A stretch of 64,000 bases of DNA, taken from Denitrovibrio sp. (GTDB taxonomy: Bacteria; Chrysiogenota; Deferribacteres; Deferribacterales; Geovibrionaceae). The notes beneath the pieces were generated by a model. That model was not told the DNA's origin, made no database searches, and worked only from the letters and a program-made list of their open reading frames with translations. Where the stretch lies: positions 496,001 through 560,000 of the forward strand of contig PKTN01000001.1 in assembly GCA_002869185.1 (NCBI GenBank). Direction: 5' to 3'. Shown in pieces: positions 4,631-59,202 of the stretch; position 1 is the first letter of the stretch, and each line of letters starts with the position of its first letter. The position numbers and the translations under genes are program-made.

Positions 4631-5074
4631 TTATGCTTCTAATATTATCGTTACTGGGCCATCATTTTCAAGCCCTACCTTCATATCTGCGGCAAAAATT
4701 CCTGTTTGAACCTTGTCTTCACCCAAATGATCTATACAACATTTAGTAAAATATTTATAGTACTCATTAGCTACATCAGGTTGCATAGCACTTGAGAAAT
4801 CAGGTCTGAGCCCTTTTTTACAGTTGCCTGCTAAGGTAAATTGACTAACTATGATAATCTCACCATCGATATCTTTTACAGATTTACCCATCTTCCCTTT
4901 ATCATCTTCAAAGATACGTAAATGGGTAGATTTATAAGCTAGATCTTCGCAAAACTTTTCCTCGTCACCCTTCTCCACTCCAAAAAGTATGAGCAACCCA
5001 GTTCCAATATTAGCTACTCTTTTACCTTCTATATCAACATAAGCGTGATTGGCTCTTTGTAAAACTACTTTCAC
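4631..5074 (-). CDS. dtd: D-aminoacyl-tRNA deacylase
   Basis: Removes D-amino acids mischarged onto tRNA. The 147-residue length matches DTD. Diagnostic motifs are the N-terminal MKVVLQRANHAYVDIEG, the SQFTLAGNCKKGLRPDFSSA motif with the catalytic Thr in SQFTL, and the C-terminal NDGPVTIILEA carrying the Gly-Pro that enforces chirality. The ATG overlaps the murJ stop by four bases, so the two are translationally coupled. Confidence 0.96.
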   Translation of the reverse strand: MKVVLQRANHAYVDIEGKRVANIGTGLLILFGVEKGDEEKFCEDLAYKSTHLRIFEDDKGKMGKSVKDIDGEIIIVSQFTLAGNCKKGLRPDFSSAMQPDVANEYYKYFTKCCIDHLGEDKVQTGIFAADMKVGLENDGPVTIILEA

Positions 5075-6552
5075 CTAATAAGCTCCTTAATCCTGATACC
5101 TGTGATTTTAAGTGCAATAAAATATATAACCCCACCAATAGCTATCACAGGAATAATATTCAAACCAAGTATATAAAGACCATACGTACTAGCCCCCATA
5201 ACAACAGATGCAAAAACTAACTTAACAATATAAAAGAAATTATCAGTTAAACGATATCTATAGTCACGCATTTTATAATATAAGTAAGCACAATTGAGGC
5301 CTGCAGCTAACCCTGAAGCCAATGCAATCCCCGAATGTCCCATTGGTTTTATAAGTAGTAAATTGAATAACACATTAGCTACAAGACCTATCGCAGCACC
5401 TTTAACTGGAGTTTTCATATCTTTCTCAGAGTGGAATACCCTGCTAAAAACATTTAGAAATGAGTAAAAAAGCAGACCAATAGTATACATTTGCAAAGCA
5501 GAAGCAGTAGCTCCAACATTTTCCATTGTAAAGCTCATTCTAGCGTAAACAATATCAATAATAGGATAAGCAAGCACTATCAAACCTGTACTAGCTGGTA
5601 ACATGATGAGAAAAATAGAATTGACTGCCTTATCTATGAGACCATTTCTTTTATGAAGATCGCCTTCAGTATTTGCCTTACTTATCTCAGTAAGAGTTAC
5701 AGTTCCAACCGCCACAGCAAACATACCAAGTGGGAATTGAAAAAGCCTATTAGCATAATATAAGTATGAGATGCTACCTACAGCAAGAAATGATGCTAGA
5801 ATACGACCAACCATAAAGTTTACTTGGTTGATACCTACGCCTGCGAGAGATGGTATAACAAGATAAAACGTCTTCCGAACATCTTTACTAAAACCACCAG
5901 ATAAAGTTGCTCTGTACCCTTTTATATAGGCTGCTATAGCTACATATAAGAGTTGAGCAATTCCACCAAAAAAAACACCGTAGCAAAGATACATTATATC
6001 TACGCCCTTAGTGTACCCTATCCATGCACCTGTAATCATCGCAATATTAAGTATAGCTGTTGAAGAGTGTGGTATATAATAGCTCCCCTTAAGGTTTAGA
6101 TAACCAGATAACAGAGCACAAATAGTAACAAGTAAGAGATATGGCATCAGAACGACCATCATATTTGATGCTGTTGTGATAATTTCTTGGTTATTAGCAT
6201 AACCAGGCATAAACAATTTTATAATATATTCTGGGAATAAAGATGTTATCACTAAAATAACTGCTATCATTAAAGAGACAGCAATAATTAAACTAGTAAT
6301 ATAGTTATCTGCTACCTTGGAACTTTTATGTTTCATGTTGTCACTAAGGAAAGGAACAAAAGCAGAAGATAAAGCTCCCTCAGCAAAAAAAGCTCTGAAA
6401 AGGTTAGGTATAGCAAAGGCAACAAAGAAAGCATCGGTCAGTCCACTAGCCCCGAAGTAGCCAGCAACAACGATGTCACGTATTAATCCAAAGATTCTAC
6501 TCGTGAAGATTCCTAGCCCAGATTTCAGTACTTTTTGTATAAATCCTGACAT
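5071..6552 (-). CDS. murJ: Lipid II flippase MurJ
   Basis: A polytopic inner-membrane protein of the MurJ/MviN family (MOP superfamily), which flips lipid II for peptidoglycan synthesis. It shows the start signature SGLGIFTSRIFGLIRDIVVAGYFGASGLTDAFFVAFAIPNLFRAFFAEGALSSAFVP and about 14 hydrophobic segments through to the C-terminus. The frame is open to an ATG at 6588, but AAGGAAA precedes the ATG at 6552 and the family begins near MSGFIQKV, so I place the start there (493 residues). It is divergent from the HU gene. Confidence 0.93.
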   Translation of the reverse strand: MSGFIQKVLKSGLGIFTSRIFGLIRDIVVAGYFGASGLTDAFFVAFAIPNLFRAFFAEGALSSAFVPFLSDNMKHKSSKVADNYITSLIIAVSLMIAVILVITSLFPEYIIKLFMPGYANNQEIITTASNMMVVLMPYLLLVTICALLSGYLNLKGSYYIPHSSTAILNIAMITGAWIGYTKGVDIMYLCYGVFFGGIAQLLYVAIAAYIKGYRATLSGGFSKDVRKTFYLVIPSLAGVGINQVNFMVGRILASFLAVGSISYLYYANRLFQFPLGMFAVAVGTVTLTEISKANTEGDLHKRNGLIDKAVNSIFLIMLPASTGLIVLAYPIIDIVYARMSFTMENVGATASALQMYTIGLLFYSFLNVFSRVFHSEKDMKTPVKGAAIGLVANVLFNLLLIKPMGHSGIALASGLAAGLNCAYLYYKMRDYRYRLTDNFFYIVKLVFASVVMGASTYGLYILGLNIIPVIAIGGVIYFIALKITGIRIKELIR

Positions 6553-51680: not shown

Positions 51681-51699
51681 ATACCCAAGAGGTACACAA
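51677..51699. promoter_or_regulatory. Inverted repeat overlapping the Rrf2 promoter and start codon
   Basis: TTGTATACC and GGTACACAA (9-bp arms, one mismatch) separated by CAAGA. It covers the -10 and the GAGG ribosome site. The most likely autoregulatory operator of the Rrf2 protein. Confidence 0.55.
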
Positions 51700-52097
51700 T
51701 GGATTCGTTCATACACAGAGAAGAGGATTATGCTTTGAGGATAGTTATATATTTAGCTACTGTTGGCAAAATGGTTAAAACCAAAGAAATTTGCGACAAA
51801 CTATATCTCACGCGCCCGATAGTTCTTAAAATTACGAATAAACTCAAATGCTGTGGATTCCTCACTACAAAGACTGGCAAAGATGGTGGGCTCACTGTGG
51901 CAGATTTCGTATACGATGCTAGTATGTATGATATACTAAAGTGTATGGGGTTTAATTCAAGAATGAATAAATGCCTTAACCATACTGAAAACTGTCAACT
52001 TATGCCAATATGCAAAGTAAATGACCTTTTTTATAATATCCAAAACGATATTGAGTTACAACTTAAGAATGCAAAGATAAAAGAGTTTCTTTATTAG
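51699..52097 (+). CDS. Rrf2-family transcriptional regulator with three C-terminal cysteines
   Basis: A 132-residue Rrf2-type winged-helix protein with FIHREEDYALRIVIYLATVG and a recognition segment LTRPIVLKITNKLKCCGFLTTKTGKDGG. Cys92, Cys99 and Cys105 (C-x6-C-x5-C) are placed like the Fe-S ligands of NsrR/IscR-type members, so it may sense oxygen, NO or redox. Located 44 bases upstream of ccoN on the same strand; probably controls the cbb3 oxidase genes. Confidence 0.88.
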   Translation: MDSFIHREEDYALRIVIYLATVGKMVKTKEICDKLYLTRPIVLKITNKLKCCGFLTTKTGKDGGLTVADFVYDASMYDILKCMGFNSRMNKCLNHTENCQLMPICKVNDLFYNIQNDIELQLKNAKIKEFLY

Positions 52098-53556: not shown

Positions 53557-54441
53557 ATGAGTAAGAATGATAATTCTATTTATAACAGAGCCCTCCTATT
53601 TTCTATAGTAGCGGCTGTTACGGTACTTATAGGTACTATTGCAACTGTTTTCGTCCCTATGTTTACAGAGGGTATGCACCCTAAAGTTGATGGTCTTAAG
53701 CCATACACAGCTCTCGAACTAGCTGGTAGAGATGTTTATCAGGCTGAAGGTTGTGTCAACTGTCACTCTCAGGTTATTCGTCCTCTTAAAGCAGACGTTC
53801 TGAGATACGGACAATACTCTAAAGCTGGTGAATATGCATACGATAGACCATTCCTTTGGGGATCCAAAAGAACAGGTCCAGACCTCGCTAGAATCGGTGG
53901 TAAATACCCTGATGAGTGGCATATACAACACTTTGAAAGCCCACAAGCTTTCTATCCAAAGTCAAACATGCCTCCTTACCCTTGGTTCAAAGAGAAGCAG
54001 GTTAATGTTAAAGAAACATTGGCTAGAATGGATGCACTCAGCTTCCCTTATACAGAAGAAGAAGCAGCCGAACTTGAAGGTGCGACAGAGCTTGATGCTA
54101 TGATCGCTTATATGCAAGTTCTCGGTACATCTATCGCTAAAGAAGCTCTCATCGAAATAGATGAAAGCATGATAGAAGCTGAAAGCCCAGTTAAAGGTGA
54201 CGCTGATGCAATAGCACTCGGTAAAAAACTTTATAAAGCAGAATGCTCTGGTTGCCACGGACAAATTGCTGAAGGTAATATTGGCGCATCACTTGTTGAC
54301 TATGCAGAATTTGAGCCATTAGATACAGATACTTATATCACTATCGCTAACGGCTTCGAGGGTGCAATGCCTGGCTACGCTGCTAAATTCAGCAAAGAAA
54401 AAATATGGGCTATCGTTGAATATATCAACAGCCTTAAATAA
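53557..54441 (+). CDS. ccoO: CcoO fused to a CcoP-type cytochrome c domain
   Basis: Residues 1-200 are CcoO: an N-terminal anchor helix (LLFSIVAAVTVLIGTIATVFVPMF), haem c motif CVNCH (66-70) and axial Met138 in SNMPPYPWF. Residues 215-294 are a second c-type haem domain with CSGCH (230-234) and axial Met271 in GAMPGYAAKFS, which matches a CcoP cytochrome domain. Normal cbb3 operons have separate CcoO (one haem c) and CcoP (two haems c). Here one CcoP domain is attached to CcoO, the other is missing, and the anchor is encoded by the next gene. 294 residues, 11 bases after ccoN. Confidence 0.93.
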   Translation: MSKNDNSIYNRALLFSIVAAVTVLIGTIATVFVPMFTEGMHPKVDGLKPYTALELAGRDVYQAEGCVNCHSQVIRPLKADVLRYGQYSKAGEYAYDRPFLWGSKRTGPDLARIGGKYPDEWHIQHFESPQAFYPKSNMPPYPWFKEKQVNVKETLARMDALSFPYTEEEAAELEGATELDAMIAYMQVLGTSIAKEALIEIDESMIEAESPVKGDADAIALGKKLYKAECSGCHGQIAEGNIGASLVDYAEFEPLDTDTYITIANGFEGAMPGYAAKFSKEKIWAIVEYINSLK

Positions 54442-54456
54442 AAGAGGAGGTACGTT

Positions 54457-54651
54457 ATGATTCAGGAAGAGTATGATAATATTGAAGCATTTCAAAGAGA
54501 AGATACTGAGCATGTACTTCCGCTCGGCTGGCTTATCCTTTTTATAGGTCTCATAGTATTCGGTATTTACTATATATATGCCTATACACCTGCCTTTACA
54601 GGTTGGTCTCAGGAGCAGCAGCTCGAAGAAGTTATGAAAACAGTTAAGTAA
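54457..54651 (+). CDS. ccoP: CcoP N-terminal membrane anchor as a stand-alone protein
   Basis: 64 residues: a cytoplasmic YDNIEAFQREDTEHVLPLGW lead-in, one transmembrane helix (LILFIGLIVFGIYYIYAY) and a short periplasmic end with FTGWSQEQQLEEVM. This matches the N-terminal anchor of CcoP (Y-D-G-I-x-E ... P-x-x-W) but stops before any haem motif. It follows the CcoO-cytochrome fusion by 15 bases and precedes a terminator. Confidence 0.82.
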   Translation: MIQEEYDNIEAFQREDTEHVLPLGWLILFIGLIVFGIYYIYAYTPAFTGWSQEQQLEEVMKTVK

Positions 54652-54709: not shown

Positions 54710-54859
54710 ATGATAGGAACACCATTGTCTTACTTTTTGTACGGTTTGGTTCTAGTTTTAGTTTTTGCTGGCATAATATTCTACAATTACTCTAAAAAGA
54801 ATCATGACAAGATAGAAGAAGCTAAATATACCATGCTGGATGATGACGATGATGTCTAG
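54710..54859 (+). CDS. CcoQ/FixQ-like small membrane protein
   Basis: 49 residues: one helix (YFLYGLVLVLVFAGIIFYNYS) then KKNHDKIEEAKYTMLDDDDDV. The layout and size match CcoQ. The final Asp run is encoded by GATGATGACGATGATG, whose overlapping ATGs are the starts of ccoG. CAGGAGA precedes the ATG. It could also be a second CcoS-like protein, as its tail resembles the later CcoS. Confidence 0.72.
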   Translation: MIGTPLSYFLYGLVLVLVFAGIIFYNYSKKNHDKIEEAKYTMLDDDDDV

Positions 54860-56069
54860 TCTTGAGCTACAGCAGAAAAGATGGATTGTTAGGATATTAT
54901 GGACTTCCATATACCTATTTATCCCCTTCATTCAAATCGATGGGCAGAGTGCTCTCAGATTTGACATATCATCTCTTGGATTACAGTTTTTTGGCAATAC
55001 TATTTACATAGAGAACTTCTTTATAGTTCTAATTTTCACATTTTTATTAACATTTCTTATTATATTAATTACGCAACTATACGGTCGTATTTGGTGTGGT
55101 TGGTTCTGCCCACAGACCGTCTTGATGAATTTCACAAAGTTTCTTGACATTAAAAAACAGAGCTTAGTTACTAAGCTATTAGGACATATATTCGTTTTAG
55201 TTATCAGTGCCCTTATAGGCGCATCAATGGTTTGGTATTTTGTTTCGCCTTATAAATTCTTTGGCGATATCGCAAACGGCAGACTCGACTCTGCAACTAT
55301 GTGGTTTACGATTACCTTATCTATTATCACATATTTAAATTTCGCCTTTATTAGATACAAGTTCTGTACAACTGTTTGCCCCTACTCTAAGCTTCAATCG
55401 GTTATGTTTGATGATAATACTCTCATCATAGCAATGGATCCAGAGACTAGCTATAAATGTGTCAGATGCAACGCCTGCGTTACCACCTGCCCTGTTGGCA
55501 TTGATATTCGTCAAGGTATGGACAGTCAATGTATCAACTGCGGACGCTGTATCTCAGCATGTACTAAGACTATGACAGTCGAAGACGAGGACGTACCTAC
55601 ACTCATAGACTATATATACGGTTTCTCTAATACTAAAAAACCTCTACGAGCTAATGTATTAATTACTGCAGTAGTAACATTTGTATTCCTTGCTGGGTTT
55701 ATATTTATGGCAGCAACGATGAAGCCATACGAGTTTCAGGTATTCCCTAACTCTTCGTTCCTACCTAGGTATAAAGATGATCAGGTTATAAACTCATATG
55801 AGATAATGCTTAAAAATCTTTCTAAAAAAGATCTTAAAGTAGAGCTACAGATAAAAGATTTTGACGATTATTAGCTGCAATACCCTAAACCTCTTATTGT
55901 TAAACCGAGCGAAACCCTTAAAGAGAAAGTATTCCTCTTTATACCTGCTGAAAAACTTGAAAAGATGCCTATATTATCTCTTAAGATGCAATCACTAGGT
56001 GATGATAAAGACGGAAAACCTCTCGAGAGTGATCTCAGCTTCCGTAGACCAATAAGACGTAGGAAATAG
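54840..56069 (+). pseudogene. ccoG: CcoG/RdxA-type ferredoxin, interrupted by an in-frame TAG
   Basis: Cupric reductase-type Fe-S protein that helps cbb3 assembly. Helices near the start are followed by CGWFCPQTVLMNF, FCTTVCPYSKLQSV and two 4Fe-4S motifs (CVRCNACVTTCPVGID; CINCGRCISACTKTM), then a helix and a periplasmic Ig-like domain. TAG at 55872-55874 is codon 345. The frame then continues as LQYPKPLIVKPSETLKEKVF to a proper TAG at 56067-56069, giving 409 positions. The Ig-like domain would be cut in half by termination. One of several in-frame ATGs at 54840-54852 is the start, all inside the upstream Asp-codon run. Confidence 0.9.
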
Positions 56070-56078
56070 GAGACAACA

Positions 56079-56513
56079 TTGAAATCCAGTTTAATCATTT
56101 TTCTAATAGGCTTTTTGACTATAGCACCATCAATATATGTTGGAGCTAAATACTTCGACGGAAAAGTAGTCGACCAACCATACGAGTCAGGGCTTACATA
56201 TAATGCTGATAAAAAATTCATTAGTGAAAACGGTCTTGGGCTGACTATCATAAAAAATGCGAAAACCGGTAATAATGTTGATCTTCAGTTCTCTTTTGAT
56301 AAGAATAAAGAGGTAGAATTAGGTGAAACATCTTTCTTTCTAACTCGCCCTGCGACGAATCAGGAAAAGATACAGATCAAAGTTGAAAAGACTGTAGATG
56401 GAATTTACGCATCCGCTTTCGAACTAAATACATACGGACACTACATTCTGAAGGCTATCACAACCGCAAACGGTAAAAGAGTAGCGATTCAGAAGAGTTT
56501 ATATATTAATTAA
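56079..56513 (+). CDS. ccoH: FixH/CcoH-like assembly protein
   Basis: 144 residues: an N-terminal membrane helix (SLIIFLIGFLTIAPSIYVGAKYF) and a periplasmic beta domain. The PYESGLTYN motif is the FixH signature (Y-E-x-G-L-x-Y-N). Needed for cbb3 maturation in characterised systems. Nine bases after ccoG. Confidence 0.88.
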   Translation: MKSSLIIFLIGFLTIAPSIYVGAKYFDGKVVDQPYESGLTYNADKKFISENGLGLTIIKNAKTGNNVDLQFSFDKNKEVELGETSFFLTRPATNQEKIQIKVEKTVDGIYASAFELNTYGHYILKAITTANGKRVAIQKSLYIN

Positions 56514-56535: not shown

Positions 56536-56622
56536 ATGAGAATAGGAACAATAGTAATGATCATTTCGCTTGTCTCTATGATTGGGCTGCCACTTTTTTA
56601 CGCGTTAAAGTACGCTAACTAA
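56536..56622 (+). CDS. 28-residue single-helix peptide
   Basis: MRIGTIVMIISLVSMIGLPL followed by FYALKYAN: one transmembrane helix with a short positive N-terminus. AGGAGG five bases before the ATG is the best ribosome site in the region, which makes translation likely. It is too short for family assignment. It lies between ccoH and ccoS and may be a cbb3 accessory subunit. Confidence 0.6.
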   Translation: MRIGTIVMIISLVSMIGLPLFYALKYAN

Positions 56623-56636
56623 TGGGAGCGCTCTAT

Positions 56637-56780
56637 ATGATGATCCCTATCTCGCTTATACTTGGCGTGATAGTTCTAGTCATATTTTTATGGGCCTCAA
56701 AATCTGGTGAATTTGAAGACATCGAAGGACCTAAGTATAGGATGCTAGATGACGACGACGAAGACTATGACGACGACTAA
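56637..56780 (+). CDS. ccoS: CcoS-like cbb3 maturation protein
   Basis: 47 residues: a helix (ISLILGVIVLVIFLWASKSG) followed by EFEDIEGPKYRMLDDDDEDYDDD. The SGEFEDIEGPKYRML stretch is the CcoS signature. CcoS is required for haem and copper insertion into CcoN. Its end overlaps the ccoI start region. Confidence 0.88.
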   Translation: MMIPISLILGVIVLVIFLWASKSGEFEDIEGPKYRMLDDDDEDYDDD

Positions 56781-59202
56781 TGTTGTAGCGTGTAAACACT
56801 GCTTGCTTGAAACTAACAAGAATCAGGCTATTATTGAAAGTGTCAACGGTGAAGAGTGCTCTTTCTGTTGCCCTGGTTGTGCCAGTGTTTATAAAATACT
56901 TCAAGAGGAAGGGTTCTCTAAGTTTTATTCCAAAAGGGATGATAACTGGGAACCCGGAGCTGTCAGTCCATCAAACGTCTCCGAGGAACTTTTTGTCGAC
57001 TCAGTAACTGAGACTGACACAGGTTATGAAGTGAGCATCGCCCTATCAGGTATAAGATGTGCCGCATGCATATGGCTTATCGAAACATACCTCTCTAAAG
57101 CAGAAGGTATCGAATCTATACGTGTAAACTACGCAACCCACAAAGCAAAAATCAGCTGGACTAAGGGCGTCATAAACCTGAGAGAGATCATAGATAGAAT
57201 CTCTTCAATAGGTTATTGTCCTCTTCCAATAAGCGATTCAGACACAGCTACAATTTATGAAAAAGAGAAGAAAGATTACTTCTTCCGCTTCTCGATAGGC
57301 GCATTCTTTAGTATGCAGCTTATGATATATACTGTTGCACTCTATGCAGGCTATTTCCAAGGGATAGATACTGGTCTTCGAACCATGTTTCAATACGCCG
57401 CTTGGCTTCTCAGCACTCCTGTCATGTTTTACTCTGGTATGCCATTCATAAAGAGCTCGTTCCAAGCTCTTCGCAGAGGGCACACCACAATGGACACCCT
57501 TATATTTATGGGTTCGTTCACCGCATATGTTTACAGTGTCTTTGCCCTATTCCTTGATAAAGATGTCTATTTTGACACTACATCTATGATCATCACACTC
57601 ATTCTTTTAGGCAGATATATAGAATCCAGCGCAAAGGCTCGCACATCCAACGCAGTCTCAAAGCTACTTACTTATCAACCTTCACAAGTTAAGTTTCTTG
57701 AAAATTTTTATTTAGAAACATACACTTCAGGAGAGTTATCTTCTACTACTGTCCCTGTGAAGCAGATCAGACCGGGTGACTACCTTGAGGTTATGCCAGG
57801 TGATTCTATACCTGCTGACGGTATCGTAATATACGGAAGCTCCGAAGTGAACGAATCTATGCTAACAGTTGAATCACTACCACAAATCAAGGATATAGAT
57901 GGAAAGGTATTCGCTGGTACAGGGAACATCAACGGTAAGCTTGTTATCATGGTTGAAAATATAGGCTCGACAACCACCCTATCCCGTATTGTTCGAGCTG
58001 TCGAAGATGCACAGGCATCCAAGGCTCCTATTCAAAACATTGCAGATATGGTTGTTGGATATTTCGTACCAACTATCATTGCAATAGGTTTTTCTACATT
58101 CATCGGCTGGTATTACCTAACTCACGAACTATTAACCTCAACAATGAACGCTGTGTCGGTACTTGTTATCGCATGCCCTTGCGCACTTGGTCTTGCAACA
58201 CCTCTTGCTATACTTATAGCTACATCAAAAATAACTAAACTAGGTGTCGTTGCAAAAGCTGGCGACATCATAGAGATTTTAAGCAAGGCAGAAACTTTTA
58301 TCTTTGACAAAACAGGAACTATAACCAAAGGTGAGCTGAAAGTAGAGGAGATAATCACATCTGGATATGACAAAGAGACACTACTTAAATACACCGCATC
58401 AATTGAAAGGAACTCATCACACCTTATAGCTAAGGCTATAACTGATACTTATCTTGAAGATTTCATGACTGTAGACGATTTCAAAGAACATCCAGGCAAA
58501 GGGCTGAGTGGCTCTATAAACGGACAAGAGATTATTGCTGGCACATTATCGTATTTAAAAGAAAAAGGGGTTGAAACACCCGATGAGCTCGTTACGGAAC
58601 ACATAAAGAACGGATATACTGCTGCGTGTATTGCAATAGATAACAAATTCGCTGGGTTCATCACACTCTCTGACTCTATAAGGGATGACGCACGTGAAAT
58701 GTTACTCGCTCTTGCTAAGCGGAACGTCACGGCTGTAATACTGACTGGTGACAACAGACTCGCTGCTGAGAAACTTATAGAAAGACTAGATGTACCTAAT
58801 TTGGAATATATCGCTGAAGTTACCCCATTCGAAAAGGCTGACGTGGTTAGATCATATCAGCAAAATGGGAAAAGATGTGCAATGGTTGGTGACGGGATAA
58901 ATGACGCCCCTGCACTTACAACAGCAGACGTTGGTATAGCGATAGGTCAAGGGACAGACATAGCTATAGAGAGCTCTGACATAGTCCTTATGAGAGACGA
59001 GCTTAAACTTGTTGAAACAGTATTTGATACATCAGTTACCACTCTCAAGGTCATAAAACAAAACCTATTCTGGGCGTTTTCGTATAATTTTGTAATGATA
59101 CCACTTGCTGTCACTGGGACTATCCACCCAGTTTTCAGCGCGGCATTTATGAGTGTGAGTAGCCTTTTAGTAGTCTTTAATTCACTCCGTATCAGCAGGT
59201 GA
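56767..59202 (+). CDS. ccoI: Copper-transporting P-type ATPase CcoI (FixI)
   Basis: About 811 residues. The N-terminal metal-binding cluster CKHCLLETNKN...CSFCCPGC is typical of FixI. It is followed by an HMA domain with GIRCAACIWLIE, transmembrane helices, the CPC motif (VIACPCALGLATP), the DKTGTIT phosphorylation site and GDGINDAPAL hinge. The motif usually reading S-x-H-P in the nucleotide domain here reads SSHLIAKA (His at 58420-58422, Leu CTT at 58423-58425), an unusual substitution. The frame is open from 56749, but an ATG at 56767 lies after the Asp run of ccoS; either may be used. Supplies Cu to the oxidase. Confidence 0.92.
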   Translation: MTTTNVVACKHCLLETNKNQAIIESVNGEECSFCCPGCASVYKILQEEGFSKFYSKRDDNWEPGAVSPSNVSEELFVDSVTETDTGYEVSIALSGIRCAACIWLIETYLSKAEGIESIRVNYATHKAKISWTKGVINLREIIDRISSIGYCPLPISDSDTATIYEKEKKDYFFRFSIGAFFSMQLMIYTVALYAGYFQGIDTGLRTMFQYAAWLLSTPVMFYSGMPFIKSSFQALRRGHTTMDTLIFMGSFTAYVYSVFALFLDKDVYFDTTSMIITLILLGRYIESSAKARTSNAVSKLLTYQPSQVKFLENFYLETYTSGELSSTTVPVKQIRPGDYLEVMPGDSIPADGIVIYGSSEVNESMLTVESLPQIKDIDGKVFAGTGNINGKLVIMVENIGSTTTLSRIVRAVEDAQASKAPIQNIADMVVGYFVPTIIAIGFSTFIGWYYLTHELLTSTMNAVSVLVIACPCALGLATPLAILIATSKITKLGVVAKAGDIIEILSKAETFIFDKTGTITKGELKVEEIITSGYDKETLLKYTASIERNSSHLIAKAITDTYLEDFMTVDDFKEHPGKGLSGSINGQEIIAGTLSYLKEKGVETPDELVTEHIKNGYTAACIAIDNKFAGFITLSDSIRDDAREMLLALAKRNVTAVILTGDNRLAAEKLIERLDVPNLEYIAEVTPFEKADVVRSYQQNGKRCAMVGDGINDAPALTTADVGIAIGQGTDIAIESSDIVLMRDELKLVETVFDTSVTTLKVIKQNLFWAFSYNFVMIPLAVTGTIHPVFSAAFMSVSSLLVVFNSLRISR

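Follow-up and report, generated by a model that had tools for sequence, protein, structure and literature searches.

A cbb3 oxidase operon of Deferribacterota and Nitrospirota encoding a CcoO–cytochrome c fusion and a haemless CcoP anchor

The C-type (cbb3) haem-copper oxidases allow cells to respire where oxygen is very scarce. In the Rhodobacter capsulatus enzyme, electrons enter at the haems of CcoP and pass through the CcoO haem and haem b to the haem b3–CuB site (PMC7876108), and CcoN together with CcoO is considered the smallest unit that functions (PMC5697931). According to the title of Peters et al. 2008, as cited in PMC13186404, stability depends on a specific interaction between CcoQ and CcoP. 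The trihaem CcoP of Neisseria is a fusion with cytochrome c5, and the extra haem was lost again in N. meningitidis (PMC2924362). The operon analyzed here lies in a 64,000-nucleotide stretch of Denitrovibrio DNA (the whole stretch is called the window) and has CcoN, the CcoO core, a CcoQ-like ORF and the ccoGHIS genes in common with the canonical ccoNOQP systems of Pseudomonas stutzeri (3MK7/5DJQ) and R. capsulatus (6XKW). Unlike these, it has no dihaem CcoP, carries a second haem domain on CcoO and encodes a CcoP anchor of only 64 aa; its gene order, N-O-P(anchor)-Q, also differs from the canonical one.

The genes follow one another in the order Rrf2, ccoN, fused ccoO, anchor, CcoQ-like ORF, ccoG, ccoH, ccoS and ccoI (Table 1); the CcoQ-like ORF at 54710–54859 had gone unmentioned in a preliminary description of this DNA. 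CcoN aligned with TIGR00780 over the length of the model at 496 bits, below the cut-off of 583, and its haem and CuB ligand residues H56, H203, H253, H254, H341 and H343 were all invariant in a 10-row alignment. With this conserved set of His residues in CcoN, a membrane-anchored CcoO bearing a c haem, and the maturation genes ccoG, ccoH, ccoI and ccoS, the locus has the features that define a cbb3 (C-type) haem-copper oxidase. The Rrf2-family protein is a possible regulator of the operon. In ccoG, an in-frame TAA at 55872–55874 ends the protein at 344 aa, compared with about 380–425 aa in relatives, and about 65 codons homologous to the C-terminus of those relatives continue in the same frame beyond the stop; the copper-handling protein may be truncated, or the assembly may contain a wrong base here. 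The ccoS gene overlaps the first possible start of ccoI by 32 bases, and the real ccoI start may lie farther downstream.

Table 1. Genes of the cbb3 operon in the window, and free cytochromes downstream of ccoG in Nitrospirota operons of the same type.
Feature	Coordinates	Strand	Evidence or remark
Rrf2-family regulator	51699..52097	+	immediately upstream of ccoN; PF02082 63 bits
ccoN, catalytic subunit, 467 aa	52142..53545	+	PF00115 (COX1) 330 bits
ccoO + C-terminal monohaem cytochrome c, 294 aa	53557..54441	+	PF02433 at 9-172, PF13442 at 218-290
haemless CcoP anchor, 64 aa	54457..54651	+	FixP_N 23.9 bits; anchor profile
ccoQ-like ORF, 49 aa	54710..54859	+	PF05545 FixQ 35.8 bits, cut-off 29
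ccoG, 344 aa	54840..55874	+	TIGR02745
ccoH/fixH	56079..56513	+	PF05751 41.7 bits
ccoS	56622..56780	+	PF03597 71.7 bits; TIGR00847 60.6 bits, above cut-off
ccoI, copper P-type ATPase	56749..59202	+	TIGR01511 531 bits; ATPase-cat_bd + HMA domains
downstream free cytochromes	L194:5164-5517, L195:5244-5591, L196:5091-5444, L197:3669-4004, L198:4498-4875 + 4836-5195		operon-strand coordinates

The fused CcoO consists of a core (about residues 1–192), a linker (about 193–212) and an extra haem domain (about 213–294). Profile searches revealed matches to FixO (PF02433; 238.6 bits, 7e-71, residues 9–172) and to TIGR00781 (213.7 bits, above the cut-off of 200.65), and residues 218–290 matched Cytochrome_CBB3 (PF13442) at 5e-16. 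The core matched the P. stutzeri CcoO structure 3mk7_B at 212 bits, and the extra domain matched cytochrome c domains, including those of CcoP, at 26–37 bits. Two CXXCH motifs and two Met-Pro ligand motifs are present, and the corresponding residues C66/C69/H70/M138 and C230/C233/H234/M271 were invariant in a 10-row alignment with relatives, so that the second c-type domain, which the preliminary description had placed at the C-terminus of CcoO, was borne out. AlphaFold models built from 10- and 18-row alignments reached pLDDT values of 57 and 60, respectively, which is inadequate for fold search or domain placement. The nearest named relative, from a Denitrovibrio sp. MAG, exhibited 80% identity to the fused protein, which places the window genome in that group of Deferribacterota. 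Both the fusion and the anchor are under purifying selection. Residues 5–294 aligned with positions 2–291 of the 294 positions of NF011054 (PRK14486) at 444–445.1 bits, 3 bits below the equivalog cut-off of 447, and an orthologue from the same genus passed that cut-off at 482 bits; the fusion is therefore already known as an annotation.

The next gene encodes a 64-aa protein without a haem motif, which comprises a single hydrophobic stretch, read as a predicted transmembrane helix, and a conserved GW[ST]Q tail. Its score against FixP_N was 23.9 bits, just below the cut-off of 24.9, and that of the same-genus orthologue was 30.6, above it. A profile of the anchors aligned with the N-terminal part of canonical dihaem CcoPs at 97.6% probability (E 4e-12) and detected that of monohaem CcoPs at 27–63 bits. 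Judged from these alignments, the protein is a homologue of the CcoP membrane anchor, in agreement with the earlier proposal that this gene encodes only the anchor part of CcoP. A haemless anchor is located directly 3' of CcoO, or slightly overlaps it, in 29 of the 30 Deferribacterota loci examined and in 21 of 22 window-type Nitrospirota loci examined. Comparison with the two nearest relatives gave a dN of about 0.08 against a dS of 1.2–1.4 for the anchor, indicating that it is a maintained protein. The operon accordingly encodes two c haems in place of three, as the preliminary description had suggested.

A dihaem CcoP encoded elsewhere, which would complete a canonical complex and which the preliminary description had named as the finding that would contradict it, was sought with the FixP_N, Cytochrome_CBB3 and TIGR00782 profiles; none was found in the window genome. 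The window genome contained no second FixO, no FixP_N match better than the anchor, and no CcoP above cut-off. The other c-type proteins examined in this genome occurred in different contexts: a tetrahaem protein was encoded next to a cytochrome b and a c4-like dihaem protein next to a flavocytochrome-like gene, and there were two small monohaem proteins. The assembly is a 2.78-Mb draft, 92.8% complete, and a gene missing from it is a possibility for that genome alone. CcoP above the TIGR00782 cut-off was found in 0 of 51 Deferribacterota genomes, and CcoP above the family cut-off in 1 of 246 Nitrospirota genomes; the identical search was positive in 36 of 50 Pseudomonadota genomes that served as a control. 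The window genome also encodes a second haem-copper oxidase subunit I (G000:C5:30004-31335; locus L206, also L004; 499 bits), which has a Sco-like gene and the gene of a small monohaem cytochrome as neighbours.

As to distribution and INTERMEDIATES, the fused CcoO was present at full length in 36 of 51 Deferribacterota genomes and in 26 of 246 Nitrospirota genomes. Since the same architecture occurs in dozens of genomes, it is the result of neither chance nor a frameshift. Its recurrence in the 36 Deferribacterota genomes and the purifying selection acting on fusion and anchor uphold the initial view that the arrangement is stable and not broken. A frameshift or assembly artefact was considered as well and is ruled out by the conservation across genomes.

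We categorized the operons by the number of c haems on CcoO + CcoP. Operons of the 1+2 type occurred in Pseudomonadota and in one Nitrospirota genome (G246), and those of the 1+1 type in Leptospiraceae and in the Nitrospirota genomes G122, G095, G130 and G069. A fused CcoO with two haems accompanied a monohaem CcoP (2+1) in one Deferribacterota genome (G003, locus L097) and in the Nitrospirota genomes G076, G210, G077 and G206 (L141–L144, L199–L202); these operons have three c haems, redistributed relative to 1+2. The 2+0 type comprised the window, nearly all other oxidase-bearing Deferribacterota and 22 Nitrospirota, and the 1+0 type, a monohaem CcoO with a haemless anchor, was found in G284 (L193/L145) and in G004 and G005 (L099, L100). 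No Cytochrome_CBB3 domain above cut-off was detected anywhere in G004 and G005 (1.3-Mb genomes, 86 and 90% complete), and G284 contained two such domains outside its cbb3 operon. In five window-type Nitrospirota operons, ccoG was followed downstream by one or two genes for small monohaem cytochromes; their products were the free proteins most similar to the fused domain, and they are possible electron donors. A MAG titled Caldithrix sp. contained a cbb3 operon (L041) nearly identical to that of Turneriella (L040), and the isolate names are similar; this MAG is probably mis-binned or mislabelled.

A concatenated tree was built from CcoN and the CcoO core, with the fused domain left out. In this tree, the 2+0 oxidases and one 1+0 oxidase formed a single clade (100/99), and the position of the latter suggests a later loss of its fused domain. 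The 2+1 and 1+1 lineages branched beside this haemless-anchor clade, the branching order among them not being resolved, and in a tree of CcoN only the haemless-anchor oxidases lay above a grade of 2+1 and 1+1 lineages. We consider it probable that the operon encodes a complete C-type (cbb3) oxidase whose entry modules were rearranged, with a cytochrome gained by CcoO and the CcoP haem domain lost afterwards. We infer this order of events from the trees as the simplest and most likely one, with occasional later losses of the fused domain as well; living lineages that combine a fused CcoO with a haem-bearing CcoP suggest that the gain on CcoO preceded the loss on CcoP. The Deferribacterota oxidases, together with that of a distant member of the phylum (G001), nested among Nitrospirota sequences in the concatenated tree (95/88), which suggests that the oxidase passed between the two phyla. 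Another genome of the same family as G001 (G003) contained a different, deep-branching oxidase.

The origin of the fused domain allows other readings. The preliminary description had regarded CcoP as split, which would mean that haem 2 of a dihaem CcoP moved to the end of CcoO, while haem 1 stayed on the anchor (2+1) and was lost later. A transfer of this kind would fit the 2+1 state, the TIGR00782 alignment of the fused domain falls mostly in the haem-2 region, and the window domain scored slightly better against haem 2 (42.5 bits) than against haem 1 (37.2 bits). Across the fused domains, however, the mean scores against the haem 1 and haem 2 profiles were 44.8 and 47.6 bits, respectively, with haem 2 ahead in only 32 of 49. 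Moreover, canonical haem-1 and haem-2 domains formed one clade (99/98), outside which all fused, free and monohaem-CcoP domains fell, and their profiles were each other's best match (177, against 110–154 to other classes). The loop after the haem site contained 9 residues in the fused domain, the free cytochromes and the monohaem CcoPs, as against 10–12 in most haem-1 domains and at least 12 in most haem-2 domains, and short-loop monohaem CcoPs already exist in Leptospiraceae and some Nitrospirota. With free monohaem cytochromes as its nearest matches, the fused domain thus does not favour a split; since the AU test did not reject its grouping with CcoP haem 2 (p=0.245, for a short haem domain of 95 columns), we keep this as a weaker and rather unlikely rival. 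It is possible, if doubtful, that the fused domain instead arose by duplication, onto CcoO, of the haem domain that the operon's own monohaem CcoP carried; this is a sub-version of the explanation preferred above, as it involves the same gain followed by loss, and the probabilities of the two overlap. The short loop is common to the fused and CcoP-borne monohaem domains, which fall in one large clade, and in 2+1 genomes the two domains are alike in sequence. Against a duplication, the free cytochromes matched the fused domains slightly better (99 bits) than did the CcoP-borne ones (78 and 72 bits), a small margin. Profile similarity to the fused domain decreased from the free cytochromes and 2+1 fusions through monohaem CcoP to the canonical haem domains. 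In the haem-domain tree, 43 fused domains of 2+0 oxidases formed one clade (97/92), and those of the 2+1 lineages did not cluster with it and therefore may represent separate fusion events; a single clade of all fusions was only marginally disfavoured, and not rejected, by the AU test (p=0.074, 95 columns). With a domain this short and these two AU values, its source among the free cytochromes is a tentative assignment, and fusion may have taken place once or more than once.

Two further alternatives concern the completeness of the enzyme. A 2026 study described the Deferribacter oxidase as only partially encoded, reporting neither ccoP nor ccoQ (PMC13186404), and together with the early in-frame stop in the window ccoG this could be taken to indicate a degraded or incomplete oxidase that has lost CcoP, the fusion being an error of annotation or assembly. 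This reading is hardly credible, since 36 of the 51 Deferribacterota genomes, as well as Nitrospirota, repeat the architecture, the anchor is conserved with a low dN, all catalytic His residues are retained and a CcoQ-like gene is present; an annotation that misses the 64-aa anchor and CcoQ leads to such an oxidase being called incomplete, as in Deferribacter (PMC13186404). It is also quite improbable that a free cytochrome c, docking on the haemless anchor, contributes a third c haem in trans and so brings the working complex to three. The small monohaem cytochromes of five window-type Nitrospirota operons, being the closest match to the fused domain, would suit this role, but no such gene is present in the window operon or was seen in the Deferribacterota operons examined, and the two small monohaem cytochromes of the window genome scored only about 14–22 bits against the CcoP haem profiles.

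Under the preferred explanation, in which CcoO gained a haem domain before CcoP lost its own, the ancestor would have been an oxidase with a monohaem CcoO and a monohaem CcoP. Once a small cytochrome c with the short loop had been added at the CcoO C-terminus, this oxidase would have had three haems as 2+1, and the CcoP haem domain would then have been lost once, in the ancestor of the haemless-anchor clade of Nitrospirota and Deferribacterota. The outer c haem, presumably loaded at the conserved CXXCH site, would be carried by the cytochrome domain at the CcoO C-terminus, and CcoP, cut down to a membrane helix and a short tail, would probably still occupy its place next to CcoN and CcoQ, where it would serve assembly or stability. 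Electrons would pass from menaquinol through a b/c-type complex and a periplasmic cytochrome c to the fused domain, and onward through the CcoO haem and haem b to haem b3–CuB. The fused domain would in this way replace the CcoP haems as the entry point, covalently joined to the haem protein that follows it in the chain, and a changed electron-entry path, as the preliminary description had proposed, is a reasonable prediction. More generally, we judge the chances to be about even that the cbb3 entry arm is modular and was passed between subunits, with the states 1+2, 1+1, 2+1, 2+0 and even 1+0 in living genomes, that the CcoP haem domains become dispensable once CcoO has an entry cytochrome, with the helix kept for assembly, and that a single-c-haem oxidase is possible in a few lineages. 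The roles of the CcoP haems and of the CcoP anchor are hard to separate by experiment, and evolution appears to have separated them: the helix stays and the haem moves. The series of intermediates supplies naturally occurring variants in which the electron-accepting haem could be identified and the purpose of the CcoP helix examined.

A literature search with little coverage of subscription journals returned no paper in which the architecture, the anchor or the intermediates were described. Among the known systems, the NF011054 (PRK14486) family resembles the window protein as a CcoO–cytochrome c fusion that aligns over its full length, but the model is silent on how the domain arose and on the intermediates, and it covers neither the haemless anchor nor the loss of CcoP. 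The Leptospiraceae-type cbb3 oxidase has two c haems in total, as does the window operon, and its CcoP haem domain is of the short-loop kind; in contrast to the window, its second haem resides on the CcoP anchor and its CcoO is monohaem. NF011053 (PRK14485), the CcoN–CcoO fusion annotated as bifunctional cbb3 subunit I/II, is likewise a fusion of cbb3 subunits, but other subunits are joined and no haem domain was moved. The trihaem CcoP of Neisseria provides a precedent for the window protein, in that a free cytochrome was joined to the end of a cbb3 subunit; that fusion, however, is on CcoP, which kept both of its own haems, and is confined to one genus.
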